From a virus, in the IMG/VR virus record IMGVR_UViG_3300025138_000203, positions 1 through 30,897 of that record: DNA of 30,897 bases, one strand, 5' to 3'. How positions within the stretch are numbered: position 1 is the first letter of the stretch; every line of letters begins with the position of its first letter. Below are positions 1,753 to 30,046 of the stretch, piece after piece. The notes below the pieces were generated by a model. It searched no databases. It was given only the letters and a program-made list of their open reading frames with translations, and was not told the origin of the DNA. Position numbers and translations under genes: made by a program.

Positions 1753-3328
1753 TATGAAGCAGTATGCTCAGCATCTGAGCAGTAAGGGGCGGTACGGAGA
1801 TAGCGAGCTTGTCCACGTAACGCCAGATGAGCTTAGTCTCCTTAAAAATATAGGCGCTGGGACAATCAACCCAGACACAGGGCTGTACGAGTTTTATCAC
1901 ACTGCTGGACACGCTGGAAACGAAGTTACGTTTGACCAAAAGTTTGCAGCAGAGCGTAAAGCGCAAGGCGCTGGTGGATCGTTTGATTTTGAAGGTAAGA
2001 CTTACAACACTGACTACGCTGAAGAAGCTAGCGGTAGCAGCTCTTCACAGAGCCAAGGGCGTGGAACTTTAACGCAAGCGCAGCGCACCGAAAACACAGC
2101 AAATTCATTCCTTGGACTTGATCGTGACGGCGATGGTTCGATGTGGACTAAGACAGACGAATTTGGAACCACGACTAACTGGCTTGGTCAAGAAATGAAT
2201 ATCGTCGAAGGCGTTAACGACGAATATTTCTTTGGGGCATTAGATGTAGACGGTGACGGTAGCTGGCTTACTAGCACTACTTTTAACGACAGGGATAGCG
2301 GTCAGCCAGAAACCAAGCAAAACGACAGCACATGGGGCGAAAGGTTTACAAGTAGAATTACTGGCAAGTCTCCTTTTTCCACAGCGTTAAATGTTGTTGG
2401 CCTCTTGGCAGCTCCTGTTCCTACATTGCTGGCGGCTGGGGTTGGCGCAACTATAGACACTAATAATGACGGCAGCATTATGGACAATATAACTGATGCT
2501 TTTAACCGTCCTTTAACGCCAGATCAGAAAAAGCGTCACGAAGAGTTTGTTGCAAATATGAACAACAACGATGATGACGATAACAGCAATACATATTCTG
2601 AAGTACAAGAAGTTGTACAAGAAACAGAGGCATCCGAAGTTCCCAATGATCTTACTGATCTAAAGTTTACTATTAACGGCAACGGTGAATTACCATTCTT
2701 AGATTATGAATATACAGCAGATGGAACTAATATTTCTAATTCATATGATGGTCAGCCAAAGCCATTTCGTTTAGATTTTGGATCAAACTTTCAAGCATCA
2801 GCATACACAAAAGCAGAGAAGGCTAGAAACGCCGTCATGGAAATGGTGGCTAGGCTCCCTGCCAGTATGCAAGACGAACTGAAAGGCGACATAAGTATTC
2901 GTATGGACAGCTCTAATAACATGAACCTCTATGTTGGCGACCAGAGAAGCGGATATATAGAGGCTAGTTATTCTGGTGACCAAGAAGGATACACGAACCT
3001 GATTGGTGATGTGGAAAGTATGCTCGCGTACACAAACGAGACAGGCGACACCAATTTTAATTCTGGGTATTTAGGCAGAATTACGTCACATGGCAAATAC
3101 AGCGAATATGACGTTGGGCTTCTTCAAGCTGAGCTAACAAATCTTCGGACTGAATTGTCTAATGCTACTCAATCAAACGTTAGAGCTGTTTTGGGCAGAA
3201 AGATCGCTAGCGTTGAGACTGAGTTGCGAAGAAGAAATGGTGAAACATTAGATATGGCAGACAGCATTGCTGGTGTAACTGATGTAATTTCTCAATCTGC
3301 AAGCGAAATGGTTTCGGCTGTTTCATAG
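1745..3328 (+). CDS. Virion-associated protein with EF-hand-like calcium loops
   Basis: 527 aa. Residues about 15-51 carry a motif (GD-x-x-LVH-x-TP, then GAGTINP and TGL-x-EF) that recurs in the 76-aa protein just downstream and resembles motifs near the ends of many phage internal virion proteins. Three EF-hand-type calcium loops are visible: D-R-D-G-D-G-S at 126, D-V-D-G-D-G-S at 167 and D-T-N-N-D-G-S at 238. A hydrophobic segment lies at about 213-237. An acidic Asn/Asp-rich linker at about 275-290 separates this from a C-terminal part with a helical, probably coiled end. The start overlaps the tail fibre stop by 8 bases. The stop codon TAG is also the first three bases of the repeated TAGGGACGACT element. 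The exact role is not known; virion or host-attachment accessory is likely. Confidence 0.6.
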   Translation: MSDMKQYAQHLSSKGRYGDSELVHVTPDELSLLKNIGAGTINPDTGLYEFYHTAGHAGNEVTFDQKFAAERKAQGAGGSFDFEGKTYNTDYAEEASGSSSSQSQGRGTLTQAQRTENTANSFLGLDRDGDGSMWTKTDEFGTTTNWLGQEMNIVEGVNDEYFFGALDVDGDGSWLTSTTFNDRDSGQPETKQNDSTWGERFTSRITGKSPFSTALNVVGLLAAPVPTLLAAGVGATIDTNNDGSIMDNITDAFNRPLTPDQKKRHEEFVANMNNNDDDDNSNTYSEVQEVVQETEASEVPNDLTDLKFTINGNGELPFLDYEYTADGTNISNSYDGQPKPFRLDFGSNFQASAYTKAEKARNAVMEMVARLPASMQDELKGDISIRMDSSNNMNLYVGDQRSGYIEASYSGDQEGYTNLIGDVESMLAYTNETGDTNFNSGYLGRITSHGKYSEYDVGLLQAELTNLRTELSNATQSNVRAVLGRKIASVETELRRRNGETLDMADSIAGVTDVISQSASEMVSAVS

Positions 3329-3344
3329 GGACGACTGAAGCTTA
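3326..3344 (+). promoter_or_regulatory. Repeated TAGGGACGACT element, copy 1 (candidate late phage promoter)
   Basis: TAGGGACGACT at 3326-3336, with TAG being the stop codon of the preceding gene. It opens a 55-base gap and lies 58 bases before the next ATG at 3384, which has GGAG at 3373-3376. The same 11 bases recur at 10565 and 27439. ACGACT resembles the recognition part of T7-family promoters; here it is followed by GAAG, so the initiation region is poorer than at copy 2. Promoter function is inference. Confidence 0.5.
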
Positions 3345-3383
3345 ATAAAAAAGCTAAGGTTAAATTGATAACGGAGTGAATAA

Positions 3384-3614
3384 ATGTCTTTTTCTGATTA
3401 CATCTTTGGCCCAAACACTGGCGTTTCAATGTCTCAACGAGCTGCTGGTAAAACAGATGAGCTGATAAAAACTGGTCGCAAGGGAGATGCTAGCTTGGTA
3501 CATGCCACGCCATTTACCAAGGACATGCTAAAGTCGATGGGTGGTGCTGGTACGATTAATCCCAAGTCTGGCCTTATGGAATTTTACCCAAAGTTTAATG
3601 ACATTAAATACTAA
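3384..3614 (+). CDS. Small virion-associated protein with the GTINP motif
   Basis: 76 aa with a good ribosome binding site (GGAG eight bases before the ATG). Residues about 31-68 (GD-x-x-LVH-x-TP ... GGAGTINP-x-SGL-x-EFY) repeat the motif at the N terminus of the 527-aa protein upstream, so the two genes share a module by duplication or a common assembly partner. The leader carries the first copy of the TAGGGACGACT element, which suggests that this gene starts a late transcript. It overlaps the next gene in a TAATG junction. In my memory of the family this motif is found in phage internal or structural proteins; no enzymatic function is visible. Confidence 0.6.
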   Translation: MSFSDYIFGPNTGVSMSQRAAGKTDELIKTGRKGDASLVHATPFTKDMLKSMGGAGTINPKSGLMEFYPKFNDIKY

Positions 3615-4120
3615 TGAATGAACCTATAACATATAAGCGCGTAAAGGTTTGGGACGATGACCTTGAGCATAGCATTAAAGAGCTTGCTATTTCGTTGCAT
3701 GGTGAGGCCACCACAGATGTTGCATCCCCACTAGACCTTGACCGCCTTATTGAAATTGCAAAGCTATACGTTCCTGACAGCAGAGAACGCGCTTTATTTA
3801 CTGCTGAACGATACGTTCCCGAAGTCAAGGACAGTCTTATCATCGGGGTAATGGCTAGCAAGATTTCGCAAAAGTATTATTCTAAAAACACGTTCGCTGA
3901 AAACATAGTCTGGCTTGTTGACCCAGACGAAAGAAAAACTGCTTTAACTGTGGGCTTTAATCTTCTCCAAATGCTTGTCGATTGGGGAAGAGAGCGCGGT
4001 GTTGACGAAATAAATATCAGCCAAGACAGCGCAATTAATTCTACAAGCTTTAACAAAATGATGGAACATCGCGGTTACAACTTCGTTGGCTGCAACTACC
4101 GTATGGAGCTAAACCAATGA
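3614..4120 (+). CDS. GNAT-fold protein, candidate counterpart of T7 internal virion protein gp13
   Basis: 168 aa with the overall pattern of a GCN5-related N-acetyltransferase: an N-terminal helical region, a central beta strand pair ending in DSLIIGVMASK, then IVWLVDPDERKTALTVG followed by a helix (LLQMLVDWGRERG) and a C-terminal strand around MMEHRGYNFVGCNYRMEL. The acetyl-CoA loop Q/R-x-x-G-x-G/A is not canonical (ERKTALTVG), so catalytic activity is uncertain. T7 gp13, a GNAT-fold core protein, sits directly before gp14-gp15-gp16; here the protein precedes, after one inserted gene, three proteins of rising size, so a virion role is plausible. It starts in a TAATG overlap and ends in an ATGA overlap, suggesting coupled translation. 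Confidence 0.6.
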   Translation: MNEPITYKRVKVWDDDLEHSIKELAISLHGEATTDVASPLDLDRLIEIAKLYVPDSRERALFTAERYVPEVKDSLIIGVMASKISQKYYSKNTFAENIVWLVDPDERKTALTVGFNLLQMLVDWGRERGVDEINISQDSAINSTSFNKMMEHRGYNFVGCNYRMELNQ

Positions 4121-6822: not shown

Positions 6823-6833
6823 AGGCAGTGTAG

Positions 6834-8090: not shown

Positions 8091-10567
8091 TGGTATGGGG
8101 TTTAGGCGCTTACTCTAAAGGACAAGCAGACAGGGTACGAGATACGAGAGCGCTTAGAGCTGAGAACGCTAGGCTTTACGCTGATTACATTCAGCTTAAT
8201 CCAGATGTAAGCGCAGCCGAAAGCGACAAGTATGCTTCCTCTTTAGCTGGTGACAGCGAACTTATGCGGTCACAGTTGCCGTCAGTAGAGGCAATGAAGT
8301 CAAGAGTGCAGCGCCGTCAGGCTGAAGTAGCGGCGGCGGCTAGCTCAAGAGAGACAGCAAAGCGGCGAGCGCTCCAAGATGAAGTAGGCAGGGCTTCTGA
8401 GGTAATGGGGCAAATGATGGTCGGGTCTAAGGACAACAAGACTGCTATTGAACAGTTTGGCAAAGCTGGTAACGGCATATGGTCGTCAGCGATCTTGTCT
8501 CCTGACGGCAGTGTGAGTAGCGCCGTAACAGCATTGGGTCAAGCCAACGCTATTAAGACTATAACGCCACAAGTAAACGCCGCGCAGTCAGTGTGGGCGG
8601 CTAACCCAATACCTGACAAATATCAATCGCAAGTTTTAAACACAGTTACTAACCAAGACTTGGTTGGTAGCTTTAAAAACATGGGCGCTCAGTTAACAGA
8701 AAATAGGCGGCAATCGTTGCAAGCTGCCGTACCAACTAACTCTAAGAAAGAGGCAAACTCTGCTGATGTTCTTAACGCTAACGCTAATGATGTTGCGTGG
8801 CAAAGCGAAGTTGCAAAATTAAAGCCCTATTTTAGCGAAGGCGAAATAGAAGATATAAAAGGCTCTTCTTGGCAACCAGAGTGGGGCGCATTTACTACTC
8901 GTCAATCAGATGAGATGGACAGAGCCTTAAAGTCAGCAACAGCAGCAGCCGAAAGTTTTTATGGCAATCCAGAAAACTTAGCAAAGGTAACGAGCGAAGA
9001 AGATTTGTACGCACAAATTTACAACTCAATGTCCAAGGATTTAAGCCCTCTAAATAAGATTAATGGCGCAGCCGATCTGCCGTCTGAGGTAAAAGGTTTT
9101 GCTAAGACAGCGTGGAACACGCTTAGAAACAACAATGTTGTTGCTTTAAATGCTCAAGAAGAAGCAACTATTCTTGAAAAACAACAAGCTGAGCTAAGCG
9201 GTATTCTTGTAAATGAAAAAATCAACAAGGATAGAACAAAGGTTGTGGACGCATTGGCAAGCCAATGGCGCATTATTTCTAACAGTGACAGTAAGATGTC
9301 AGAAAAGGACAAAGCAATTTTTGTTAGCAATGTTGAAAATCTTGTTTCCACATCTAACGATGTGGCAGCGTCTTTGAATTTTGATATTAGTGCTGACAAT
9401 TATTATAACAATCTGTTGAGTACGATATCCAGACAGGCTGACATAGAATTTGATAGCGCAGTAAAAATTTCTTCGGAAACAGTTATTAAAGCGATGTTCG
9501 ATATAGCTAACAGAACTAGACAAGCAGACGATATAGACACTGCTATGAGAACTTTAGGAGTAACTGATTTTAGTACGCAAGTAATAGACGATCCAGAAAG
9601 ATGGGAAGAGTTTGGTAACGCTATGAGAATGGCGATTGCAGAAAGAATTAGAGTTCAGAACGATGTAATCCCGAATGATTGGGGTAAAGGCGCAAACGCT
9701 CCATCCTACGATGACTTGGGCGACTTACTGAGCCAGAAAGCGCAAGAGATTACAGAAGAAATTACTGGTAGAAACGGCTTTATGGAAGCTGAAGGCCGAC
9801 TACAAAAAGCCAACGCTAGCAAATCAGTAGTGGGCATAGAGCAAGAACTAGAGCGCGGAAACGAATACATAGCAGCAGCTCAAGATGCAATGGAAGAACT
9901 TGTATTCTTTGAGCAGCAAGCGACTTCTCTTATAAACGGCAACGTATTGCCGATGACAATGGAACAGAAAGCAGCAGCCAGAGAGCAACTGCGAAATGTC
10001 TTAGTTTTAAAACAAAATCTAAACAACGCTGTTACAGGTATCAGCTCAGAAATGCGGATCATGGCGCGTAACAAACAGTCACTTAGAACGGCTGATCGTG
10101 AGACATCTTGGCAAGCCTCTAGTACACAAATGACCTCTGAGCTTACCAATCTCTCACAACAAAACATGCCAACTAAAGAGCTAAGAGCTAACGTCGAGCA
10201 GTTAGTTGATAAAGTAATCGAAGAAAATGGATTAAACAGGCTTCTTGTGACTGACTATACTATGGAAGGCGAAGAAAGAGCATGGAAGTTTGCTGACATT
10301 ATGCGAAAAAGCCCAGCAGTTAGCGGACTTATGTGGCTCAACGCAAACGCACCCATCAAGGCAAGACAAGATGATCTTCGCAATACACTTCTCAGGTTAG
10401 CTGAAAAAGAAGTAGGACTTACCACGCAGGGCCAGATGCGGCGTGACGATGCTTCTGGACTAACTCTTGGAAATTTATTTGATGAGATTGGTCAGGGGCT
10501 AACGGTAGTCGGGGATATCATTGTTGGAGCTGTTAACAAAGATTGGCGCTACTCTGACCCTGAGTAG
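8090..10567 (+). CDS. Putative internal virion / DNA ejection protein (gp15-like)
   Basis: 825 aa, almost entirely helical and charged, with repeated heptad-like stretches (for example residues about 360-420, 590-660). There is no signal peptide and no catalytic motif that I can see. Size, helix content and position between a 418-aa and a 3311-aa protein fit the T7 gp15 type of ejection-tube protein; that is inference from order and composition. The ATG overlaps the preceding stop by one base. Its TAG stop is shared with copy 2 of the TAGGGACGACT element. Confidence 0.6.
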   Translation: MVWGLGAYSKGQADRVRDTRALRAENARLYADYIQLNPDVSAAESDKYASSLAGDSELMRSQLPSVEAMKSRVQRRQAEVAAAASSRETAKRRALQDEVGRASEVMGQMMVGSKDNKTAIEQFGKAGNGIWSSAILSPDGSVSSAVTALGQANAIKTITPQVNAAQSVWAANPIPDKYQSQVLNTVTNQDLVGSFKNMGAQLTENRRQSLQAAVPTNSKKEANSADVLNANANDVAWQSEVAKLKPYFSEGEIEDIKGSSWQPEWGAFTTRQSDEMDRALKSATAAAESFYGNPENLAKVTSEEDLYAQIYNSMSKDLSPLNKINGAADLPSEVKGFAKTAWNTLRNNNVVALNAQEEATILEKQQAELSGILVNEKINKDRTKVVDALASQWRIISNSDSKMSEKDKAIFVSNVENLVSTSNDVAASLNFDISADNYYNNLLSTISRQADIEFDSAVKISSETVIKAMFDIANRTRQADDIDTAMRTLGVTDFSTQVIDDPERWEEFGNAMRMAIAERIRVQNDVIPNDWGKGANAPSYDDLGDLLSQKAQEITEEITGRNGFMEAEGRLQKANASKSVVGIEQELERGNEYIAAAQDAMEELVFFEQQATSLINGNVLPMTMEQKAAAREQLRNVLVLKQNLNNAVTGISSEMRIMARNKQSLRTADRETSWQASSTQMTSELTNLSQQNMPTKELRANVEQLVDKVIEENGLNRLLVTDYTMEGEERAWKFADIMRKSPAVSGLMWLNANAPIKARQDDLRNTLLRLAEKEVGLTTQGQMRRDDASGLTLGNLFDEIGQGLTVVGDIIVGAVNKDWRYSDPE

Positions 10568-10585
10568 GGACGACTACTAAAGGCG
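10565..10585 (+). promoter_or_regulatory. Repeated TAGGGACGACT element, copy 2 (best candidate late promoter)
   Basis: TAGGGACGACT at 10565-10575 followed by ACTAAAGG. Compared with the T7 class (ACGACT, one base, then ACTATAGGG; T3 has ACTAAAGGG), this copy matches both the recognition and the initiation parts, with one base fewer between them. It starts a 59-base leader before the 3311-aa gene. The leader also holds an inverted repeat CATTTAA (10589-10595) / TTAAATG (10610-10616) whose right arm touches the GGAG ribosome binding site at 10616-10619. No functional data; promoter status is inferred. Confidence 0.55.
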
Positions 10586-10626
10586 CTTCATTTAATCTCA
10601 TTTTATAGGTTAAATGGAGTACCTAA

Positions 10627-13600
10627 ATGGACAACGCTATTGAGCGCCGACTTGCACGTATGCAAGCAAAACGTGATGCCGCAACAACAAGCACAGACTA
10701 CACTGGTTTAAGCGGATCATCACTGGTTAACGACAGAAATTTTCTTAATGATGTGCGCGGATATTACCGCGATCAGGGTAAAACCTTCAGTTCAAATTCT
10801 GAAATGATTGACAACTTCTATACAGATAGACGTTGGAAAGATGTAAACAGCTTATCGGCTGGGATGTCGCTGTTAGAGTACGGCTTTGCTGGCGAAGACC
10901 AAGGGCGCTTATCGCGCCTGAGTAAGGCATGGAGAAACGCCCCACCAAGAGGCAGCACTTTAGATAAAGTTAAAGACTACGGCATAGCAGCAGTTTTAGA
11001 CCCAATTAACGTTATACCTACCGTCAGCGCTGGGAGAGCTGCACAGGCAACAAGGCTCGCAGCTTTAGGGGCTGGTCAAACAGCAGAGGAAGCAGCCAAG
11101 CTGGGTGTCAGACAGGGTACACGACAAGGCGCTATATCAGAAGCTAAAATAAATGCTGGGATTGAGGTTGGATTTGATGCAGCTTCTCAAGCTGGCGAAA
11201 TACAGCAAGGTGTCAGTGAAGAATACGATCCCACACGAACACTTTTAGCTGGCACATTGGGCGCTACTGCTGGTGGTACTATAGGGTATGGGCTTAGTAA
11301 CATTGCGGCTAAATGGAGAACTGGAAAACCGTTAACAAAAGCAGAAGAAGGGGATATAGCAAAAGCTCTTGGCATTGAACCAGAGCAGCTTACAGATGAG
11401 CAAATACGTGCGGCTCTTGGCGTTAGCGATCAGCTTGCATTGCCAGCTCCTGACGGTTCTGATCTTGGCGCACTGACAGGCGAGCCAATTCGCATGGCTT
11501 TACCAGCTCCAAGAGCTGCCCCAACGGAAGAAATACAAGAGCTATTCGAAGCACAAGACATGCTTAATGCTGAACGCCAATCCTTGATGGAAGATTATCA
11601 AGAGGTGTTTGGCAGACAGGTAGACGGTCAGTACACGCCAGCTCAGCTTGCAGAAATGCAAGAACTTAGAGATCGAATTTCTGAAATATCTGAAGAGTTA
11701 AATACTGTTAACGTCGAAGTAACAGACGTAGACGTTAAGCTTGCTGACATTAAAAAAGCTGAAGAAGGGCTAGCTGATTTAAACCAAGCGATCCAAGACC
11801 CACAAAGTAAGACTACCATAGGTGATATAGAGGCTGCTCAAGCAAGCATAGCTTCCCTCAAGTCAAATCTAAGTGTTAGAACCGAAGGTTTACAGACAGC
11901 TACAAAAGATCAGACAGACATATTCTATGACGTTCCTGTGTCGCGCAGAGATATAAAAGTTAAAGAACGTATAGAAGACATGGTTGCTGAAGGTATAGTT
12001 ACCTTCCGTCAGATAAAAGAAGATGCGGAAGCTGGTAATCTTTATATAACCAGCAGTGGTAATTTTACGTCGAAAACGGCTGATGAAATTGAAGCTAAGT
12101 ACGGATCACCAACGGCAGATACGAGCGACAAAACTCCAACGGCAGATTCAACGGCAGACACATCTCCAGGAAAAGTTGAGGAAGTTACAGAAGTTGCTGC
12201 TGTCGAAGAGCCAGACGCTCTTTCTAGTGATATTATTTCGTCTGCTGCTAAAGAAATGGAAGACACTTCCGCTCAAGTAGCTCGCGCTCAAGATGATTTA
12301 GATATAATCACAAGCTCCATAGACGACATGACCACAGTAGGTAATTACCAAAAAGCTGCTATCAGAGGTATGCTCAACAAAGGTGAGATTAGCCAAGAAG
12401 CATTTGATATTCTTGACGCTGACATAGACGATAACTTCTTTGTTACTGATGATGCGTTCGATGCCGCAAAAACTGGAAGACCTACAGACAAACAACTTGA
12501 AGCTATGGGTGCAAAACGCTCTATGGTTGAAGCCCCAAAAAGACAAAAGGGCGTACCTTCTATCGAAAACGCTAGGAAGATTTACACTGGCCCAAAAGCT
12601 GAAGAAATATTTGCTCGCTACGATAAGCTTCAAAACGAAATAGAAATTTATACAAAAGACAAGACTACTATTGGCAGCATAGCCTTTCGCCCTGAGTTTG
12701 AAAAAGCGCTTAAAAAAGAAGTAGCTTCAAATGTTAAAAGGCTTACAGCAGAAAAGAAAAAATCGAAATCATCAAAGGAAAGCGATGCTGTTGAAGCAAG
12801 GATAGTCAAAGAAAAAGCACGACTTGAAACTGATATGCAAAGCTATGACGCTAGCACTGATCAGATGATAAAGAGATTGATGTCGGAACAGCAAGACGCG
12901 CTTAAAGAATTTACCGATGGGCGTTTTGATGCGCCAGAACCGAAGGTGGACAACCAAACTAAGTACCTAAACAACTTAGAAGAAGAGATGATCGCTTGGA
13001 AGAAAAAGCGAAAAATGCGCGATATGCTTCGGGGTGTTCCAGAGGTAGATGAGCTAACAAACGAAGAGATTGTAGCCATTGAAGTTCGCTTAAAGAAAGA
13101 TATGAGCAACTTTGCTAGTCGCAGCCCACGATTAGAAGAGTTCAAACGCTTAAATGAAGCACAACAAAAGATAGTATTAGATGAGGTCACTGAAAACAGA
13201 CGCGACACTCTCACAAGAGAAAAGATAAATCAAAAGTCTAAACGTATTGCTGGCACGACAGGTAAAGCTACTGAGAATATAGATATATTTGCTGGTAAAA
13301 ACGTTCAGACTTACCGCGATGCAAAAGGCAACCTGATTACTGAAGCTACAACGCAAGGTATGCTGAGAAAAAGCAGAGCCACAAGAGTAAAGAAACGTGC
13401 GCTTAAAGAAGAAGGCTTTGAAGCGGTTAAAGCTAGAGCTGAACTTGATGCTGATCAGGGTAAATTAAAAATATTTTATGAGTTCAAAGGAACTGGTAGA
13501 GAGCGCGTCATTGACAGGGGTAGTAAGCCTAAGCTGAGCAATGGAGAGGTGGGTTATTATAACCACGTTACTGGTCAAAAATACGCAAACATTGAAAGTC

Positions 13601-19600: not shown

Positions 19601-20562
19601 CAGGTTTAACTCCTTGGACAGAAATGTGGCGTAACATATCTGCTGCTATTGCATACGAACATTTCAAGATGATGCAGCGTCAGGCAATGGACGGCCCCAG
19701 AACACGGCAAGGTCGCATAGCTAAGAAGCAGTTAGACGCTTACGGCTTACAAGAGTTTTACGAACCCAACGCCAATCAAGTGGAGACAGCCTTAGATGGC
19801 GAACACTACCAGTATCAAACACTAGCAGTGGCAATGAACAGGTTTGTGAACGAGAGTATTTTTACACCCAATCCAACCGACATTCCTGTTTGGGGTCAGA
19901 CACCGCTTGGTAAAATAGTGTACCAACTCAAATCATTTCCAATGATGATGTGGCGACTGCATAGAAGAGCGTGGAATAGGTTTCTTGATGACCCAATGAA
20001 TGACATGGATGTGGCCCCATTGCTGTATATGTACGGCGCTGCACCTAGCATGGGGTTTGCGTCAGCTAACGTTAAGGACATCGTTCAAGGTCGAGGTGGA
20101 GAAGACAACCGACAGTTCGCTCTTCGTAACAGATCGCTCAAAGAGCAGTTTAGTTGGGCAGAAAATATGGATGAAGACGTAGCCCAATACCTTGGGTGGT
20201 ATTGGGACGGCTTTATGGTCATGGGCGGTCTGGGTCTGATTGGTGAGATGCTGTATGACATTGGGCGCAACGTTGATAACGGTGCGTTCGGTCAGGTTAG
20301 GATAGGCGAAGTTATCCTTGGGCCTAGTATGGGCTTGTTCAACGATGGGCTAACGGTAGGAGCTGGCGTATCAAACATAATAAGTGACAAGCTAGGTGGT
20401 ACATCAACCAACTACGCTGAGCGTGAAATGGTTGATACCCTGTTCCACAGATTAGCACCACCGTTTGGGTCTATGCCTTACGTTAGAGAAAACGTAGTTG
20501 ACAAGTTGGCTGGAACGCCAAGCGGCAGAGAAGGTAGTGGAAAACTAAGCTCTAAGTTTTAG
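10627..20562 (+). CDS. Giant 3311-aa ejection-type virion protein with zinc-protease motif
   Basis: By far the largest gene, 9.9 kb. Domains seen in order: helical start with a Gly/Ala-rich hydrophobic segment at about 203-225; coiled coil at about 300-425; highly charged helical stretches at about 690-910; a zinc metallopeptidase motif HELGH at 1407-1411, with TPQEYFANQF placing a candidate third ligand Glu at 1486 (gluzincin style); an AT-hook-like RGRP at 1739-1742 followed by GSTGRKP; long helical regions; and hydrophobic segments near 2909-2931 and 3191-3216 that could insert in the membrane. T7 gp16 occupies this place after gp15 and forms part of the ejection channel. Here no transglycosylase domain is obvious; the peptidase may replace it. 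It is preceded by copy 2 of the TAGGGACGACT element and GGAG. No RNA polymerase motif of the N4 virion type was found. Confidence 0.7.
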   Translation: MDNAIERRLARMQAKRDAATTSTDYTGLSGSSLVNDRNFLNDVRGYYRDQGKTFSSNSEMIDNFYTDRRWKDVNSLSAGMSLLEYGFAGEDQGRLSRLSKAWRNAPPRGSTLDKVKDYGIAAVLDPINVIPTVSAGRAAQATRLAALGAGQTAEEAAKLGVRQGTRQGAISEAKINAGIEVGFDAASQAGEIQQGVSEEYDPTRTLLAGTLGATAGGTIGYGLSNIAAKWRTGKPLTKAEEGDIAKALGIEPEQLTDEQIRAALGVSDQLALPAPDGSDLGALTGEPIRMALPAPRAAPTEEIQELFEAQDMLNAERQSLMEDYQEVFGRQVDGQYTPAQLAEMQELRDRISEISEELNTVNVEVTDVDVKLADIKKAEEGLADLNQAIQDPQSKTTIGDIEAAQASIASLKSNLSVRTEGLQTATKDQTDIFYDVPVSRRDIKVKERIEDMVAEGIVTFRQIKEDAEAGNLYITSSGNFTSKTADEIEAKYGSPTADTSDKTPTADSTADTSPGKVEEVTEVAAVEEPDALSSDIISSAAKEMEDTSAQVARAQDDLDIITSSIDDMTTVGNYQKAAIRGMLNKGEISQEAFDILDADIDDNFFVTDDAFDAAKTGRPTDKQLEAMGAKRSMVEAPKRQKGVPSIENARKIYTGPKAEEIFARYDKLQNEIEIYTKDKTTIGSIAFRPEFEKALKKEVASNVKRLTAEKKKSKSSKESDAVEARIVKEKARLETDMQSYDASTDQMIKRLMSEQQDALKEFTDGRFDAPEPKVDNQTKYLNNLEEEMIAWKKKRKMRDMLRGVPEVDELTNEEIVAIEVRLKKDMSNFASRSPRLEEFKRLNEAQQKIVLDEVTENRRDTLTREKINQKSKRIAGTTGKATENIDIFAGKNVQTYRDAKGNLITEATTQGMLRKSRATRVKKRALKEEGFEAVKARAELDADQGKLKIFYEFKGTGRERVIDRGSKPKLSNGEVGYYNHVTGQKYANIESLKKEGLLSEAEPAPETTQATIMSEGDFRAAEQTLQNKLGTQLIAGGDFNELMAEYLKESKALNARYVQTDAPSAEEKIVDMKGAEVTPEEPVIAGKLEPVIKDSAGNSMRIAIIPKDPNFKFVINGKEKVYGARMLGQNQSSVDDLFGEGQKNNRDQWVIAYLPSNFPKRDMSNPKKVRAKMQTVGKKEPTTMQKVEAMVNPKAKPVEQEYVPPARPLEMSKDGDTTKISMSAIRDGEPNGSEIIRSLFTLSLLNPKTKGKYKSLLDFSNSNLSLREMDNIIETAESQDWKVTIQVGGVDKEIPYSLRVMHLKNAYSVMKGVAPEGIKLNNTDIDTSINQALEIFKKAGKKQKKEIARLLKIVVPENMAPRFFQTKDISSAYQTTQQEKMAGENTIRLNPKELEGTGINPVHLTMHELGHWVYRNMMSYEDRAFFWDNLSKFYDEDSNFQLYPKAYKIIGKPEYDSDGNFVKNVEGTRTPSVSGVGIVSKTTPQEYFANQFVAYMMNQQGALVVDTSLMEKVKGMVKKLWKKLIDPDYEDTDLTKFFDRLIKDKNDAARAAHSNPVEPTDDFSRFIQTRFDQLQILHRSIDSKIRSGDTASAADELLKLANTYRSMAFNKRDGKIAAQKKKEPYNDARTGVFAPIKPYAVVMKRWAKQINDELRIEDTRAGDVQSPNASGYSAEALSAVEKLWGKTKMSMIGDDTAMATDPMLANLNDVIMGTLNSQYKNVTGGDIPSFVPASIKMRRGRPVGSTGRKPHSIERRNAINNARQRKNIQVTQQMMEAASEDMKKSASAAVKSGQPYMDFRSMDLDTLMRNWDRFGDSRQRTEVAQFAKDLSHKLPPSNVATTNRLFKQGADYKQIMDLAWKAKQDGNADHVMLAIRELQARKSSTGKYDPTQFDAAVLRAVDAEHHFNQGDAAVLGVPAKAPFALRSFLTAITHRKPRIAYVARTMSARLAYLGVELPSNPASEGYNNYRNTARKSATTLEKAEDITPVVRLVSDLLLDAELVDEATYELMGQLGRKFGVEPKKLVADIIIQDNDMKTKPTTVKSIMDQVSGEERFALEDAINDIRQNITPSLGYVMKGLIANPNARKRFPFITLHGEMVSPDVTMPKGSPTVHFTESVPAEHAKNYVDDVLDNLDPAQLMSARRFTDSETPQVYYASVSKLGGLSGGVRIKSTPDNFIERMRTTIIQGLNDDNASETVNDLLDELELVTDEIAYLSVRAEETSQSRSHLNNLFEFEKSLRKELRDTHSIGEEIETIPVFVRDTKPAVFGDVVSQKNPLFTEIAQAILRNNQGRDTQRAGEILMESETGGYETLVNMAGSKSKLHRIMKDIGFSSVQVNGAKTLFNSSDMRYIRDYALRSEDLNHTVGLEKKAHSANVAFVDAAMLGKDEGENLIRSVMSAMESVGVSPRFIDAMDKKRRGKQIGEGEAQEMRKAATLFTTKNNAEITANAGMTFISRVFNPLKGGGGHYERHAVAVSKICTPLLRKLNDLPDGGNLVSRWWRDSAVTMYDSASGAMGGAIGFVPKARATQPQSHSRILAAARMGDVTKLKSKDEVEIFNMLRTYFDNTLVRMRQAGMQVGNISRNYVPQVYRKDLIEADREEFERRLSLYFLAEDAERPLGPDRVNPLTEVEARAKAFKMADSIVADDGVMRPHDLNIKRQPAEGKSADHTFQRVIRLDTVNGGMFNDPTNPNNLQDFLENDIMIVVSKYSDAAERDMDLFKSFGAGHHAVDDYFIGLNANNDNMDDLIRIIKGDKVDIVTRKVRDPRAKQEQTVNFDYTYMSAPARLKRKGEAEKAAAEVVQLARGGATKAEVSEYLNRLHRRSEADLKDMNAEERTLELNKVKNFKLRAEAIADGIVTAKGGLTPVRRENQLHAKQYLNLVKRKQHNGEEGAYTGVLQTTQKWLTGFNAVTLLPFTILSSLGDSTLPLIQSGNFQAWARGVKNYAQNDENYREMITNVGAATENITFKYMTQAFGVDSTKFTNGYFNATGLTPWTEMWRNISAAIAYEHFKMMQRQAMDGPRTRQGRIAKKQLDAYGLQEFYEPNANQVETALDGEHYQYQTLAVAMNRFVNESIFTPNPTDIPVWGQTPLGKIVYQLKSFPMMMWRLHRRAWNRFLDDPMNDMDVAPLLYMYGAAPSMGFASANVKDIVQGRGGEDNRQFALRNRSLKEQFSWAENMDEDVAQYLGWYWDGFMVMGGLGLIGEMLYDIGRNVDNGAFGQVRIGEVILGPSMGLFNDGLTVGAGVSNIISDKLGGTSTNYAEREMVDTLFHRLAPPFGSMPYVRENVVDKLAGTPSGREGSGKLSSKF

Positions 20563-21335: not shown

Positions 21336-21336
21336 G

Positions 21337-22197
21337 TTACACCTTTGGCGTTGGGCGAAATAATTTAAAATCGTCACACGCGCCAAGATGCTCTTCGCCA
21401 GTTCTGCTACATGAAAAACCGCCCTGCTCGTTTGCAAAACTGTGTTCACAGAAGCGACACTCAGGCTCAACGTCAGGAACTTCCCAACACGCACTTTGTT
21501 TAAAGCAAAAAGTACATCTAAAGTCGTCCCTCTTGGTGGCACACCTATCTTTCTGACCGCTCAGTGCTGCTTGGATACGAACAAACATTGCGTCCCATTC
21601 TTCCTGATCGAAGAAAATCATTTCTGCGTGGTAAGCAGAAGAATTTTTACAGTACGAAATGAAGAAAGCCTTGGGTATTTTAAACATTGCCATCATCATC
21701 TGACACTGGCTGTAATATTTTGGATGGGACTTTTGAACGCCATGCTTAACAAACTTATTAAACATTGTATTCTTCATCGACTTAATCTCTAGGATCGCTG
21801 TCCGTTCGTCGTCAGGTATGTCGCCACCTTCAAAGGTGACAAGCCCATCTGAATTACAAACGACATGACCGCCAAGCCACTCGCGCCTATGCTGCCGTCC
21901 TGACCACTCATCCTTCTCATGGACAAGTAGGTCAGCTCGTTTCTTTAGGTCGCGCACCACCTCATCTTCGATGCGATGACCGTCACGAAATATTCTTTTA
22001 GTTCTGGGTTCTGGCTCATCATCAGGGAAGCCCCTAAGAGAAAGGGCAAGCTGGGCGATACACTCAGTACCAGCCATGCTTGCTCCGATATAGCTTCTGG
22101 CTTCGCCTCTCTTTTGTGAGGCAAAGCCATTGTCTATATTTTCAACAACCTGTTGACAAATTGATTGCCAATCTTCCTTAGAAAGGGATTTGGTCAT
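21337..22197 (-). CDS. Cas4/RecB-type PD-(D/E)XK exonuclease
   Basis: 286 aa from the ATG at 22197, chosen because it overlaps the SSB-like gene by only 20 bases; an upstream ATG at 22242 would overlap more. Active-site elements are visible: G-H-R-I-E-D-E-V at 73-80, Asp117 in N-S-D-G-L-V, Glu137-x-Lys139 in I-L-E-I-K-S, and Q-C-Q-M-M at 164-168. Cysteines at 46, 228, 231, 237, 247, 250, 263 and 274 form a Cys-rich C-terminal domain, which could bind a metal or an iron-sulphur cluster as in Cas4/AddB relatives. It likely resects DNA for the Sak4/SSB annealing system in the same operon. A near-copy of the TAGGGACGACT element lies within the gene on the coding strand. Confidence 0.8.
   Translation of the reverse strand: MTKSLSKEDWQSICQQVVENIDNGFASQKRGEARSYIGASMAGTECIAQLALSLRGFPDDEPEPRTKRIFRDGHRIEDEVVRDLKKRADLLVHEKDEWSGRQHRREWLGGHVVCNSDGLVTFEGGDIPDDERTAILEIKSMKNTMFNKFVKHGVQKSHPKYYSQCQMMMAMFKIPKAFFISYCKNSSAYHAEMIFFDQEEWDAMFVRIQAALSGQKDRCATKRDDFRCTFCFKQSACWEVPDVEPECRFCEHSFANEQGGFSCSRTGEEHLGACDDFKLFRPTPKV
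21515..21531 (-). promoter_or_regulatory. Near-copy of the TAGGGACGACT element on the minus strand
   Basis: AGGGACGACT at 21522-21531 (read leftward), followed by TTTAG. It matches ten of the eleven bases of the repeated element and is oriented with its operon, but it lies inside the exonuclease gene and its codons (K-R-D-D-F) may explain it. Confidence 0.25.
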
Positions 22198-23436: not shown

Positions 23437-23465
23437 TTATTTCCCTTCATTGAAATTGAATTTTA

Positions 23466-23513: not shown

Positions 23514-23528
23514 ATAAAAGGTAACTAA

Positions 23529-23747
23529 ATGAACTTTGACGTACAACGTTTAGTGTCTGACTTAGGTGGTGCTACTAAAGTCAGTAGTCAGCTTAATATC
23601 ACACGGACTATCCCCTATGGGTGGATAAGACGACGATATATATCGTCCACTTATCTTGCGCGGTTAAAAGAAGTGAACAAATCACTCGACCTAAATCAGT
23701 ATGTAACAGGAGAAAACACCAATGGAGATGCTAAACGCAGCGCTTGA
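23529..23747 (+). CDS. Cro/YdaS-like helix-turn-helix regulator
   Basis: 72 aa. The pattern L-G-G-A-T-K-V-S-S-Q-L-N-I-T then I-P-Y-G-W-I-R-R-R-Y-I (residues about 12-39) is the Cro/YdaS type: LGG-x-x-x-V-A-x-x-L-G-V, with W-x-x-R-x-I after the recognition helix. AAAGG lies eight bases upstream of the ATG. It faces the palindromic operator at 23488-23502, so it probably regulates the divergent promoters. The 3' end overlaps the primase-helicase start by 26 bases. The C-terminal tail is short and polar, without an autocleavage domain, so it is not a LexA/CI-type repressor. Confidence 0.7.
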   Translation: MNFDVQRLVSDLGGATKVSSQLNITRTIPYGWIRRRYISSTYLARLKEVNKSLDLNQYVTGENTNGDAKRSA

Positions 23748-25644: not shown

Positions 25645-25651
25645 ATGTGCA

Positions 25652-25676
25652 TGTCATATCTGTCATACCTGTCATA
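25652..25676 (+). repeat. Three TGTCATA direct repeats with nine-base period
   Basis: TGTCATA occurs at 25652-25658, 25661-25667 and 25670-25676, each nine bases from the last, in the 35-base gap between the convergent primase-helicase gene and the first basic small protein gene. They resemble a small iteron array, but could also be leftovers of replication slippage. Confidence 0.7.
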
Positions 25677-25679
25677 AGA

Positions 25680-25814
25680 CTACTTCTTCTTAGCGGTCTT
25701 AGCAGCGTCACGAAAGTTCTTATCAGAAGGTGCGCCCTTTGCGCCCTTCTTTCTCATCTTCTCACCACGTTTTCTTTTGGCGTGGATGTTGGCGTACAAG
25801 CCCTTATTCGCCAT
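25680..25814 (-). CDS. 44-aa very basic small protein
   Basis: Starts at the ATG at 25814 and stops at 25680. Sixteen of 44 residues are Lys or Arg. The beginning M-A-N-K-G-L-Y-A-N-I-H-A-K-R-K-R matches a tiny conserved protein I know from many marine phages; its function is not established. The start codon overlaps the stop of the next upstream basic gene (TGATG), which supports coupled translation. A role in nucleic acid binding or packaging is plausible from the charge but unproven. Confidence 0.75.
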   Translation of the reverse strand: MANKGLYANIHAKRKRGEKMRKKGAKGAPSDKNFRDAAKTAKKK

Positions 25815-25927
25815 CAGTAGCCTTTCTTTTTCGTCTTCATAGGCTTACCAGTTTTCTTGGCTTCTTTAGCAGCAGCCTTTTTACCAGCTTTCGTGTACGC
25901 AAATTTCTTTTTACCCACGGACGGCAT
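25814..25927 (-). CDS. 37-aa Lys-rich small protein
   Basis: ATG at 25927 with AAAGGAG nine bases upstream, a clear ribosome binding site that decides the start against a longer in-frame reading that would overlap the neighbouring gene. Fourteen of 37 residues are Lys. The pattern M-P-x-V-G-K-K-K-F-A-Y-T-K-x-G is shared by small proteins of many marine phages (from memory). It ends in a TGATG overlap with the 44-aa gene. Function unknown. Confidence 0.75.
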   Translation of the reverse strand: MPSVGKKKFAYTKAGKKAAAKEAKKTGKPMKTKKKGY

Positions 25928-25940
25928 GACGTAAACTCCT

Positions 25941-26204
25941 TTAACAATCCCAAGCGCGGCGGCTCCAATAGTTAGCCGACAATTTATTTGATTTACCTTT
26001 GATCCCACCACTGCGAGCGCAATAACTTTTCTTGCGTGAGGGCTGGTCTTTTTTGATGGACATATTAGCGTCACCAAATCTAATGATTTTTTCTTTCCCA
26101 TCGGCGCAAGCTTTGACTACGAATTTTTTGCCGCCGCTCGTCTGACGCCTCGGCTTATTGCAGGGCATATCTTTCTTGCTTATTTTCGATTTAGTCTTTG
26201 CCAT
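25941..26204 (-). CDS. 87-aa basic small protein, first gene of the minus-strand trio
   Basis: Begins M-A-K-T-K-S-K and includes K-K-F-V-V-K-A-C-A-D-G-K-E-K-I-I-R-F-G (residues about 26-44) and K-L-S-A-N-Y-W-S-R-R near the end, both hallmark segments of a conserved marine phage protein family of unknown function (DUF6321-like, from memory). Four Cys (15, 33, 62, 87) could bind a metal. An alternative start at 26168 (M-P-C-N-K-P-R-R) is possible; neither start has a strong ribosome binding site. The leader upstream holds a long G/C hairpin with a U-run. Confidence 0.7.
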   Translation of the reverse strand: MAKTKSKISKKDMPCNKPRRQTSGGKKFVVKACADGKEKIIRFGDANMSIKKDQPSRKKSYCARSGGIKGKSNKLSANYWSRRAWDC

Positions 26205-26304
26205 GCATTGCCAAAAATGGGGGGTAACAGAAAGAACATACAGAAATCTATTACCCCCCTGTAGTCTTGAAGGGAGAAAAGCGTAGTACCGAGGACGGAC
26301 TACA
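26205..26304 (-). promoter_or_regulatory. Possible attenuator-like leader of the basic protein operon
   Basis: Reading leftward from the predicted promoter at 26310-26338. The 5' segment TGTAGTCC (26297-26304) can pair with GG(T)ACTAC (26283-26290; six-base loop, one bulge) or with GACTACA (26260-26266), but not both. Next comes a perfect 9-bp stem GGGGGGTAA/TTACCCCCC (26219-26227 and 26251-26259) with a 23-base loop, followed by ATTTTTGG (26211-26218). The start codon is at 26202-26204. Such mutually exclusive pairings before a terminator-like hairpin are typical of attenuators and riboswitches. This is structural inference only. Confidence 0.45.
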
Positions 26305-26308
26305 TGCC

Positions 26309-26349
26309 CAACATATAACTATCAGTGTGTTCAGTCAAACTATATGTTG
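26309..26349 (-). promoter_or_regulatory. Leftward promoter spanned by a 9-bp inverted repeat
   Basis: On the minus strand: TTGACT (plus 26333-26338), 17 bases, TATGTT (26310-26315). The promoter sits inside a perfect inverted repeat CAACATATA (26309-26317) / TATATGTTG (26341-26349) with a 23-base loop; the left arm covers the -10. It probably drives the basic protein trio and could be an operator site. Confidence 0.5.
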
Positions 26350-26396
26350 TGTCAGTACATATATTTACCTAACGTTACTGCTGGCGTTGGGAAGTT

Positions 26397-26484
26397 GGTA
26401 CGCTCGGACTTCACTACTTGTCTCTACAGTGCCTTCCGCGAAGCGGAATGCTCTGTCTCGCTTACTTCGCTTGCCGAGCGTACC
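26397..26484. repeat. 88-bp two-tier inverted repeat (possible structured RNA or cruciform)
   Basis: Outer arms GGTACGCTCGG (26397-26407) and CCGAGCGTACC (26474-26484) are a perfect 11-bp pair. Centred within is TTCCGC (26434-26439) / GCGGAA (26443-26448), extendable with interruptions. A further hairpin CCTAACG (26368-26374) / CGTTGGG (26385-26391) lies just before it. The region shows no convincing gene; it is too unlike tRNA to be one. It may be a non-coding RNA, an origin element or a protein-binding cruciform. Confidence 0.55.
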
Positions 26485-26531
26485 AATAATTTTCATTTTG
26501 TCAACCCCCTGACACAACGTCTAGTGTGTAT

Positions 26532-26561
26532 TTGACAATACTTAAACACTGGTGTTATTAA
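26532..26561 (+). promoter_or_regulatory. Candidate promoter for the HTH/zinc protein gene
   Basis: TTGACA (26532-26537), 18 bases, TATTAA (26556-26561). Within the spacer is AACACTGGTGTT (26545-26556), a palindrome with 5-base arms and a 2-base gap, an operator-like arrangement. It lies 34 bases before the ATG at 26595. Confidence 0.5.
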
Positions 26562-26594
26562 AAAGACACAACTTTAAAAAATATGAGGTTATGA

Positions 26595-27047
26595 ATGGGG
26601 CATCCTTTAAGTTTGTCTGCTGACCAAGAAAAATATTTACGAGAAAATCATTTAAAAACTACATATGCAGAGATGTCACGAAACATCGGCGTATGCGTGG
26701 ACACACTTAAAAGAATGTTGGTCAGACTAGGGCTGCAAGAGTTCGATGGGGCTAAGTACCACATCAAAGAAAAACCAAAAACTTGGAGGCGACCTTGCAT
26801 CAACTGCAAGTCAACGACACCGCGACCAATAAACCAATACATGTGCAGCGAATGCAACGCAGTTACTGGAAGTTCGTTTGATGATTTCGTTTCTAATTGT
26901 TCGCACTCTACAACGGCAGAGAGCGCTTCTAATATGACTGACCTTTTGACGCACACTTTTGGAGCTGAGTTTGAAAGATGGTCTGAGCGAGACAAGTACG
27001 CAGAAAATTATGCTGAAGTATCGTTAGCGAGGGTAAAGATTGGGTAA
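26595..27047 (+). CDS. Helix-turn-helix plus zinc-binding protein
   Basis: 150 aa. Residues about 9-45 form a helix-turn-helix (L-S-A-D-Q-E-K-Y-L-R-E-N, then T-Y-A-E-M-S-R-N-I-G-V-C-V-D-T-L-K-R-M-L), and Cys68-x-x-Cys71 with Cys84-x-x-Cys87 form a likely zinc ribbon. This combination suits a DNA-binding regulator or a small packaging/replication protein. GAGG six bases before the ATG supports the start. It follows the inverted-repeat-rich region with a promoter at 26532 and overlaps the resolvase gene start by 8 bases. The C-terminal third is unlike anything I recognise. Confidence 0.65.
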   Translation: MGHPLSLSADQEKYLRENHLKTTYAEMSRNIGVCVDTLKRMLVRLGLQEFDGAKYHIKEKPKTWRRPCINCKSTTPRPINQYMCSECNAVTGSSFDDFVSNCSHSTTAESASNMTDLLTHTFGAEFERWSERDKYAENYAEVSLARVKIG

Positions 27048-27441
27048 TCGACAGAAAGCTAAAGGGGATGCTTACGAACGTGAGCTTGCCGCCTACCTTA
27101 ACGATGAGGTCTATGGGTATGAGCAATGTGGACGCGCTCCGCTATCTGGCGGTGGCTTCGTCGGCCTGTCAGGTGGCGCTGATCTCATTGGAACAACTGG
27201 ATTATTTGTTGAAGCTAAGCGAGTTGAGCGGCTGAGCTGGCGTGAAGCAGTCGCCCAAGCTGAACGCAACGCCACGACAACGAAAGCTCAAGAGACACCT
27301 ATCGTAGTCACACGTAAGAGCCGTGAAAAGACAGGCGACAGCCTAGTTGTGATGCGGCTTAACGAGTTCAATAAGTATTACAAAGCATGGCTACTAAGCG
27401 AAGGATATCGGACGATCCCTTCGGGGGGATCGGTAGAGTAG
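27040..27441 (+). CDS. Holliday junction resolvase-like PD-(D/E)XK nuclease
   Basis: 133 aa from a TTG start at 27040 (M-G-N-R-Q-K-A-K-G-D), which overlaps the previous gene by 8 bases; no ATG fits well. Nuclease residues: Glu13 in D-A-Y-E-R-E-L, Asp48 in G-G-A-D-L-I, and Glu58-x-Lys60 in F-V-E-A-K-R. This E, D, ExK spacing and small size match phage and archaeal resolvase-type endonucleases that process branched replication intermediates before packaging. The end of the gene contains a strong hairpin, CGATCCC (27413-27419) / GGGATCG (27426-27432), just before copy 3 of the TAGGGACGACT element. Its stop codon is the first part of that element. Confidence 0.75.
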   Translation: MGNRQKAKGDAYERELAAYLNDEVYGYEQCGRAPLSGGGFVGLSGGADLIGTTGLFVEAKRVERLSWREAVAQAERNATTTKAQETPIVVTRKSREKTGDSLVVMRLNEFNKYYKAWLLSEGYRTIPSGGSVE

Positions 27442-27456
27442 GGACGACTATTAGTT
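27439..27456 (+). promoter_or_regulatory. Repeated TAGGGACGACT element, copy 3 (candidate lysis promoter)
   Basis: TAGGGACGACT at 27439-27449, followed by ATTAG. It opens the 55-base leader of the lysis block, 58 bases before the ATG at 27497. A hairpin CTCATTGT (27470-27477) / ACAGTGAG (27481-27488) ends at the GAGG ribosome binding site (27486-27489), which could limit translation. The flanking stop codon and spacing match copy 1. Function is inferred. Confidence 0.5.
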
Positions 27457-27496
27457 ATCTGGGTATATGCTCATTGTAACACAGTGAGGGTACGAC

Positions 27497-27973
27497 ATGC
27501 TTGCCGAAACACTAGCGTTGGTATCCGCTGCAAATTCAGCCTACGCCACCGTTAAAAAATTTACGCAGAACGGCAAAGAAATCAGCGATATGGCTGCTGC
27601 TTTGGGTAAAATTATGACGGCAGAAGAAACGCTGTCGGCGCAGGGTAAGTCAAAATCAAAATCTATCTGGCGAAAAGCATTCGGAAAGAGCGGCGATAGC
27701 GTCGAGGAATTTATGGCGTTGGAAAAGTTAAACGAACAGAAGCGCGAATTAAAATCCATGATGCAGCTCTACGGACGAAGCGGAATGTGGGCTGACTATC
27801 AAAAGTGGTGCGGTCAAGAACGGATTAGAAAGAAACGAGAAGCTGAAGAGAAAGAAGCGGCTCGCATGGCGTTGATTAACGGTGGGATGTGGACGCTAGC
27901 AGCAGCAGTCTTCAGTGGATTAGTTTACCTGATGATCCGATGGGCGTTCGAAAACAAAGGGATATTCAGTTGA
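27497..27973 (+). CDS. Membrane protein with one C-terminal transmembrane helix
   Basis: 158 aa. The N terminus (M-L-A-E-T-L-A-L-V-S-A-A-N-S-A-Y) and middle are helical; a charged K/R/E-rich stretch (about 108-122) precedes one transmembrane helix at about 128-147 (W-T-L-A-A-A-V-F-S-G-L-V-Y-L). Similar proteins sit by the lysis genes in marine phages (memory), so it may be a holin-associated or tail-assembly membrane protein. It is the first gene of the lysis block and overlaps the next start in TGATG. Function is unproven. Confidence 0.65.
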   Translation: MLAETLALVSAANSAYATVKKFTQNGKEISDMAAALGKIMTAEETLSAQGKSKSKSIWRKAFGKSGDSVEEFMALEKLNEQKRELKSMMQLYGRSGMWADYQKWCGQERIRKKREAEEKEAARMALINGGMWTLAAAVFSGLVYLMIRWAFENKGIFS

Positions 27974-28197
27974 TGGAGTACCTAAATGAAATCATGCGTT
28001 GGATCGTAGCGCCAGTAACCGCATTCGTTTTTTTTATATATCAACGCCAGAACAAACATCACACCGACATCGCTGTCCTAAAGAGCGAGCTTAACTCTTA
28101 CAAGCTAGCCAACGATAGAGAGACTAAAGAGATGCGCCAGACAGTTCACCAGATATTCACGAAGCTCGACAACCTAGAACAATACCTTCGTAAGTGA
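27973..28197 (+). CDS. Small membrane protein with coiled-coil tail, possible holin
   Basis: 74 aa from the ATG at 27973 (TGATG overlap with the previous stop). A longer upstream start would overlap the previous gene heavily. One transmembrane helix at about 9-24 (W-I-V-A-P-V-T-A-F-V-F-F-I-Y) is followed by a basic patch and a coiled coil to the end. This single-TM plus charged helix design, in the position just before an endolysin block, suits a small holin or spanin-type partner; no family assignment is certain. Confidence 0.65.
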   Translation: MEYLNEIMRWIVAPVTAFVFFIYQRQNKHHTDIAVLKSELNSYKLANDRETKEMRQTVHQIFTKLDNLEQYLRK

Positions 28198-28577
28198 TCT
28201 ACAATATTCAGATCGGACGGCAAGGCGAGATGCTGGCTGCTAGCATCCTTGAGGGCTATGGTGTCTACACAACTCACGTTGACCTCCCAGAAGACGATCT
28301 TTGGGTAAAAACTCCGCACGACAAATTCTTTAAGGTGCAAGTCAAAAGTAGTTCGCGTCCTATTCTACATTCGTCACATCACACTTTACCTAAATACTCT
28401 TTCGCGCTTCACTCAATGAAAGGCTACACAGGCATCGTTATGTATGTAGCCATTGACGTAAAGATGATGATCGCTCGTTTAGGGACGACAGTTAAAACTA
28501 AGACAGTTAAATTAAAGCCAAGCGATTTCACACAGCAATCTCAAGATCGTTCTATACGAGAGGTATTCGAATTATGA
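28194..28577 (+). CDS. PD-(D/E)XK endonuclease-like protein
   Basis: 127 aa from a GTG at 28194, four-base overlap (GTGA) with the previous gene. The start region G-R-Q-G-E-M-L-A-A-S with Glu12, Asp34/Asp35 in P-E-D-D-L-W and the Q-V-K-S-S motif (Gln49, Lys51) give the nuclease fold signature GE, D, (Q/E)xK seen in small phage and intron-type endonucleases. Its place inside the lysis block is unusual. A near-copy of the repeated promoter-like element (TAGGGACGACA) lies near the 3' end of this gene, upstream of the endolysin. Confidence 0.7.
   Translation: MIYNIQIGRQGEMLAASILEGYGVYTTHVDLPEDDLWVKTPHDKFFKVQVKSSSRPILHSSHHTLPKYSFALHSMKGYTGIVMYVAIDVKMMIARLGTTVKTKTVKLKPSDFTQQSQDRSIREVFEL
28480..28497 (+). 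promoter_or_regulatory. Near-copy of the TAGGGACGACT element upstream of the endolysin
   Basis: TAGGGACGACA at 28480-28490 differs only in the last base. It lies in the coding frame (L-G-T-T) 94 bases before the endolysin ATG and could provide extra late transcription of the endolysin. The support is weaker than for the three intergenic copies. Confidence 0.35.
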
Positions 28578-30003: not shown

Positions 30004-30046
30004 CAACTTTAACTCAACTATCACAACTCAGAAGGATCAATTTAAT

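Follow-up and report, generated by a model that had tools for sequence, protein, structure and literature searches.

A conserved RGGACGAC box with a −10-like partner at fixed spacing marks probable late promoters in the CRP-810-type family of marine phages

The window analyzed here, a 30,897-base IMG/VR virus record (IMGVR_UViG_3300025138_000203), is a fragment of a CRP-810-type phage genome, without its terminase, portal and capsid genes, and carries an 11-base repeat, TAGGGACGACT, in the leaders of late genes. Comparison with related genomes showed that the repeat belongs to a family-wide element with the conserved core RGGACGAC, followed at a fixed distance by an AT-rich box, and these repeats are very probably the −35-position boxes of bipartite late promoters throughout the family. 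The best overall explanation, to which we assign a probability of roughly 70%, is that the bipartite promoters are served by host RNA polymerase (RNAP) together with a phage-encoded DNA-binding factor, the likeliest reader being a small helix-turn-helix (HTH) protein with four cysteines encoded at 26595–27047.

Exact copies of TAGGGACGACT were found on the plus strand at 3326–3336, 10565–10575 and 27439–27449 and nowhere else in the window, at the positions reported in the initial annotation of this DNA. As had also been described there, the TAG of each copy serves as the stop codon of the upstream open reading frame (ORF), and the next ATGs (3384, 10627 and 27497) follow 58, 62 and 58 bases downstream of the copies, which occupy the sole three plus-strand gaps of 50–60 bases between late genes in the window. 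Both near-copies listed earlier were recovered with one mismatch each, at 28480 (plus strand, reading TAGGGACGACA) and at 21522–21532 (minus strand). Recurrence by itself is no proof, because ten 11-mers occur at least three times on the plus strand of the window (21 when both strands are counted), and the count of TAGGGACGACT with two mismatches allowed fell inside the range of shuffled windows. The proof comes from the relatives: the box is conserved at orthologous positions across 25 genomes or fragments, which refutes chance recurrence of the 11-mer and leaves that explanation with a negligible probability. The 28480 copy, though intragenic, is a genuine family position, while the 21522 copy is more likely coding sequence than promoter, since it lies within the exonuclease gene and is kept there in two relatives (L007 and G002). 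The suggestion that the promoters had evolved over stop codons did not hold up: the overlap is incidental, as the conserved core is RGGACGAC with just a mild A/T preference immediately upstream, and many family copies come after a terminator instead.

The comparison covered 25 genomes or fragments, 14 of them complete, among them whole contigs of 23 relatives and Roseobacter phage CRP-810; most relatives were metagenome contigs of unclear completeness, and their ORFs were simple longest-ORF calls. The conserved core, whose first base is G or A, was present without mismatch upstream of the portal gene in 17 of 18 cases (0.26% in random stretches of the same width), the gene after the capsid gene in 18 of 22 (expected 1.4%), the gene at 3384 (w3384) in 12 of 13 (0.35%), the giant virion protein gene in 16 of 23 (0.8%; 21 of 23 with at most one mismatch) and the endolysin gene in 10 of 14 (0.25%). 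Upstream of the capsid gene it was exact in 12 of 22 and within one mismatch in 21 of 22, with expectations of 1.3% and 7%, respectively. Genome-wide counts of RGGACGAC were 201 on the late and 28 on the early strand, against 77:43 for a reversed-pattern control, and in 1.15 Mb made up of eighty relatives found through the tail protein plus further loci, GGGACGACT had 82 late-strand occurrences vs. 4 on the opposite strand. The reversed-genome and random-window controls count related genomes as independent, and clustering at 55–60% identity lessens this kinship without removing it. Boxes precede the genes for portal, tail fibre, gp47, capsid, the post-capsid protein, w3384, the giant virion protein, w27497 and endolysin, i.e., mostly structural and lysis genes, and the same box occurs in family members spanning 41–62% GC. 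A literature search for GGGACGAC in connection with phages returned, among its top matches, a phage-genome paper showing the string in a PCR primer only.

In several genomes a terminator-like hairpin with a T run stands immediately 5′ of the post-capsid box, which fits the expectation for the beginning of a new transcription unit. In nine genomes the endolysin box lies inside the upstream gene, with 91–92 bases separating it from the endolysin start downstream. The window reads it as GGG-ACG-ACA (LGTT, phase 0) and the remaining eight genomes as nGG-GAC-GAC (WDD or RDD, phase 1); the retention of the box despite this change of codon phase argues for selection on the DNA, the phase change representing one independent event in a small sample.

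The second part of the element emerged from the column information of the site clusters, which dropped to near zero past the core and rose again about 26–32 bases from the core start; spacer positions 9–24 carried at most 0.2 bit each, and the 15 bases after the core were nearly information-free. In an expectation-maximization search of 87 divergent site clusters, a second motif could be placed anywhere within the next 40 bases; for 53 of 75 sites the search located g(C/T)(A/T)(A/T)AA(T)T at exactly 17 nt past the core. The log-likelihood was 119.7, with shuffled sequences reaching no more than 57.9 and upstream sequence 72.3. Held-out sets (the AGGACGAC sites of the first 13 genomes and all sites of 12 new genomes) again gave the top score for the AT-rich box at 17 nt on the late strand, with no such peak on the early strand; an equal score at −4 was trivial, the box overlapping the fixed core there. 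The exact core plus box occurred 65 times in 13 genomes compared to 4 times in the same genomes reversed. The family consensus accordingly reads (A/T)(A)RGGACGAC - N17 - g(C/T)(A/T)(A/T)AA(T)T. Because the AT-rich box sits at a fixed 17 nt downstream, RGGACGAC falls in the −35 position, at about −38 to −31 when the −10 hexamer is set at −12 to −7. Judged as standard sigma-70 promoters, the sites have a TATAAT-like −10 at the proper distance, degenerate at single sites, and RGGACGAC in place of a TTGACA-like −35, and the late-gene upstream regions score at sigma-70 background. This combination of a box with a fixed-distance partner, on the late strand and at conserved sites before structural and lysis genes, strongly supports the late-promoter reading of the initial annotation, and the alternative offered there, a regulator-binding site, comes nearest to the truth.

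In the window, −10-like boxes were placed by the family spacing, and the start sites given here are predictions from sequence; all four promoters lie on the plus strand. The first, before the 76-aa gene at 3384, has an exact −35-position box at 3326–3336 (core GGGACGAC, 3328–3335), with an orthologous site in 12 of 13 genomes, and a −10-like box GCTAAGGT at 3353–3360, 17 nt after the core, with a predicted start at ~3366; the orthologous −10-like box in G002 reads GTTAAAGT. The second, before the gene for the 3311-aa giant virion protein, combines an exact box at 10565–10575 (core 10567–10574) with a −10-like region TTTAATCTC at 10591–10599, in which TTTAAT stands at spacer 16, and has a predicted start at ~10605; orthologous sites read TTAATCTG or ACTAATCT. 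The third lies in the lysis region before the 158-aa gene at 27497 (exact box 27439–27449, core 27441–27448), and its putative −10-like box, TATGCTCA at 27466–27473, is a weak match at the family spacing of 17 nt past the core; G043 likewise has a site ahead of its w27497 homologue. The fourth is intragenic, with its −35-position box at 28480–28490 (core 28482–28489), 92 nt before the start of the endolysin (amidase) gene at 28574, and a −10-like box GTTAAATT at 28506–28513 (spacer 16). Outside the window, the portal ATG lies ~5–7 nt past the −10-like box in most genomes compared, implying a nearly leaderless transcript.

The copy at 10565 does run on into ACTAAAGG, as noted before, and together with ACGACT this looks T7-promoter-like by eye; the initial annotation had therefore proposed T7-family promoters read by a single-subunit RNAP encoded elsewhere in the genome. 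That extension is private to 10565 and is not conserved at orthologous sites. The Pfam RNA_pol profile (PF00940) matched neither CRP-810 nor any of 31 IMG/VR contigs of 29.8–59.2 kb, with a T7 control at E 1e-109, and an information-free spacer with a second box 17 nt off contrasts with the one contiguous conserved block of ~20 bases, reaching to the start site, of a T7 promoter. A polymerase of this type as the reader is thus highly improbable. The promoters described here resemble T7-type (Autographiviridae) late promoters in that several lie along the late strand, each starting a transcription unit, and differ in their bipartite −35/−10 build and in the lack of a detected single-subunit RNAP. 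An N4-type polymerase was likewise rejected, as a profile of 22 giant proteins gave no significant match to the virion RNA polymerase (vRNAP) of N4 or DSS3phi2; CRP-810 gp36, which corresponds to the N-terminus of the giant protein, was weakly similar (E 5.8e-5) to the N-terminal portion of vRNAP-family proteins and matches pelagiphage internal virion protein D as well.

If the element were no DNA promoter part and worked at the RNA level, in processing, stability or antitermination, its location in leaders near start codons would be explained, and some of these leaders do fold well: that of the giant gene (10565–10632) reached −19.3 kcal/mol (z −4.3), a value that 0 of 200 shuffles equaled. 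This fold is kept in only part of the family, a common RNA structure containing the box was not seen, and the remaining window leaders, trimmed to begin at the box, gave z no better than −1.8. The fixed 17-nt −10-type partner, the terminators just upstream and the intragenic copies likewise speak against an RNA signal, which we consider very unlikely. With a bipartite promoter at this site, the 5′ arm of the giant gene hairpin overlaps the −10 box, so that RNA started at the promoter would lack the arm, and read-through RNA would carry it with the ribosome site masked. A comparable masking of the ribosome site in read-through RNA is known from T4 gene e. Separately, the major capsid gene leader of relatives (e.g., L034, L050 and L085; outside the window) spans ~165 nt and contains a conserved GCGCTACGGC, which forms a hairpin with a cUACGg loop; this hairpin shows compensatory changes in 3 of 5 pairs, and an Rfam search with the capsid leaders of these three gave no match.

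As to what reads the promoters, a host alternative sigma factor or host activator acting without any phage factor would be in keeping with the bacterial-like −10 and with the empty search for sigma region 2 (PF04542 matched neither the window nor any of 12 relatives, with positive bacterial controls). The same empty search led us to reject a phage-encoded sigma factor as the reader. To our knowledge, RGGACGAC fits no known alphaproteobacterial sigma consensus. The box is also identical over members of 41–62% GC with a wide reported host range, namely SAR11, Roseobacter, Poseidonocella and Sphingomonadaceae (PMC11288001), which makes purely host-based reading unlikely. We infer instead, with good though not full confidence, that the late promoters are read by host RNAP plus a phage-encoded factor. 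A precedent is found in T4 middle promoters, where a MotA box is combined with a sigma-70 −10 and sigma is appropriated by MotA/AsiA (PMC2988021). The two systems share a phage-specific box in the −35 place with a host-type −10 retained (here as sequence architecture only), an asymmetric box compatible with monomer binding, and the use of host RNAP with phage factors, which here would follow from the proposed reading. They differ in that the MotA box, (a/t)3TGCTTtA, lies 12 ± 1 bp from the −10, compared to ~17–18 for RGGACGAC, in that late genes are served here, and in that no homologue of AsiA or MotA was found (PF09010 and PF09158 were negative in the window and 12 relatives, with a positive T4 control). 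The promoters described here would work like T4 middle promoters, yet their sequence, their spacing and the lack of MotA/AsiA place them outside that class.

The candidate reader is a 150-aa protein encoded on the plus strand at 26595–27047, with an N-terminal HTH and four cysteines (C68, C71, C84 and C87) that probably form a zinc site. Each of the 14 complete genomes, and 24 of 25 sequences overall, contained a homologue, and an alignment of the homologues showed a near-invariant CVDTLKR segment in the HTH and four invariant cysteines; the predicted structure had a pLDDT over 90 within the HTH. In structural superposition, the best match to the HTH was the GcrA DNA-binding domain (5yiu; Z 6.8, rmsd 2.1, 47 of 49 residues), although a Z under 8 may reflect a common arrangement; this hit stood about one Z unit above the next rows, yet below the level proving kinship. 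The Pfam GcrA profile (PF07750) matched nothing in 12 relatives or the window, the candidate included, while its Caulobacter control was positive, and a Foldseek search of the whole protein against the PDB, in which the disordered tail dilutes the signal, gave no significant match. GcrA, a small HTH factor linked to sigma-70 in Alphaproteobacteria, shares the alphaproteobacterial setting with the candidate and gave the best superposition on its HTH, and differs in that the candidate has a cysteine cluster rather than the GcrA C-terminal region and that the box lacks GANTC. The protein is nearly restricted to the CRP-810-type family, the family primase being present at 77 of 79 loci found with it, and no relatives were confirmed in bacterial genome contigs. 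It is mostly unannotated in the family; in CRP-810 (OR671924.1) the gene lies at 14316–14023 on the minus strand, in a stretch without an annotated feature. A sigma-70-like promoter, TTGACA N18 TATTAA, precedes the gene in the window (26532–26561, plus strand), and across relatives its upstream regions beat random 150-mers in sigma-70 score (p 6e-5), late genes remaining at background. Together these data tip the balance modestly towards the HTH/four-cysteine protein as the phage factor that would read the box.

A second phage protein could read the same bipartite promoter, namely the LuxR/sigma-70 region 4-like HTH protein encoded at 29999–30529 on the plus strand, which matches Pfam Sigma70_r4_2 (4e-10) and GerE (1.8e-9) and whose gene is present in most relatives within the window's own subgroup. 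Profile searches found no such gene in G002, G031, G033, G035 and G036, all of them complete or near-complete and box-bearing; the complete G002 has eight boxes. Since complete motif-bearing relatives lack the gene, its product is the less likely reader, and we regard this assignment as quite unlikely. The gene adjoins the integrase in both the window and CRP-810, suggesting a role in lysogeny, and LuxR was proposed as a lysis/lysogeny regulator in the CRP-810 paper (PMC11288001).

Several observations weigh against bipartite late promoters read by the HTH/four-cysteine protein. The −10-like boxes are degenerate, and they are weak at window promoters 1–3. The portal box lies just 38–39 nt before the ATG, which implies an almost leaderless transcript. 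The sigma-70 score of the candidate gene may be inflated by AT content, because intergenic DNA was compared with mostly coding random DNA. A YdaS-like 72-aa HTH protein, w23529, is equally universal (14 of 14 complete genomes); it looks like a phage repressor, and it and the 26595–27047 protein are the two small DNA-binding candidates among the proteins found in all 14. Finally, as the box hardly varies, the pairing of protein and box gains no support from covariation.

Under the proposed mechanism, host RNAP-sigma70 would produce the HTH/four-cysteine protein early in infection from its ordinary sigma-70-type promoter. The protein would then bind RGGACGAC, probably as a monomer because the box has no dyad, and substitute for the −35 contact of sigma, while host sigma would contact the −10-like box and RNAP would initiate a few bases past it. 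The late −10 boxes would be too weak alone, so that recruitment of RNAP by this protein could produce the early-to-late switch. A small phage-encoded late regulator using host RNAP, as envisaged here, has a parallel in the Ltr/ArpU/RinA regulators of Gram-positive phages, which are described as turning on packaging, assembly and lysis genes via host RNAP (e.g., PMC13123087). No sequence relationship to these was detected in Pfam or PHROGs scans. Ltr/ArpU/RinA act on one known operon promoter, vs. many promoters along the late region here.

More tentatively, a GcrA-like HTH with a four-cysteine zinc site reading RGGACGAC as a −35 substitute might represent a previously undescribed type of sigma-appropriating activator, spread across a globally distributed family of alphaproteobacterial marine phages. 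If the HTH/four-cysteine protein is indeed the reader, it would constitute a new way for a phage lacking both a polymerase and a sigma factor of its own to redirect host RNAP. From the shared promoter code, late transcription units can be predicted for hundreds of uncultured genomes; the code also directs attention to one testable regulator and serves as a marker that does not depend on protein similarity. A word search of the CRP-810 paper (PMC11288001) found promoters and RNA polymerase unmentioned.

The sole GenBank relative with several homologous genes is CRP-810 (57,692 bases), which defines a globally distributed temperate marine phage family with at least eight subgroups (PMC11288001). 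The tail protein of the window matches that of CRP-810 at 43% and its primase at 38%, the giant virion protein matches as well, and the genes of the window match those of CRP-810 and its relatives in order. A search for relatives via the 901-aa protein at 4117 found none. The window holds the tail protein, a series of late genes without known function and the 3311-aa virion protein, and an early block on the minus strand encodes an exonuclease, a single-stranded DNA-binding protein and a Sak4-like protein; the window also contains the primase, the HTH/four-cysteine protein, a PD-DEXK nuclease, the lysis region, the LuxR-like gene and the first part of an integrase gene. The giant virion protein (10627–20562) is one ORF in the window and most relatives, and is given as three overlapping ORFs (gp34–gp36) in the CRP-810 record. 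A 16-mer, ATGGAGTACCTAAATG, occurs both at 10612–10627, covering the ribosome site and start of the giant gene, and at 27973–27988, in the first codons of a 74-aa ORF at 27973. The ~950 bases between the primase and HTH genes (25645–26594) show no clear plus-strand gene and may hold small lysine-rich ORFs on the minus strand.

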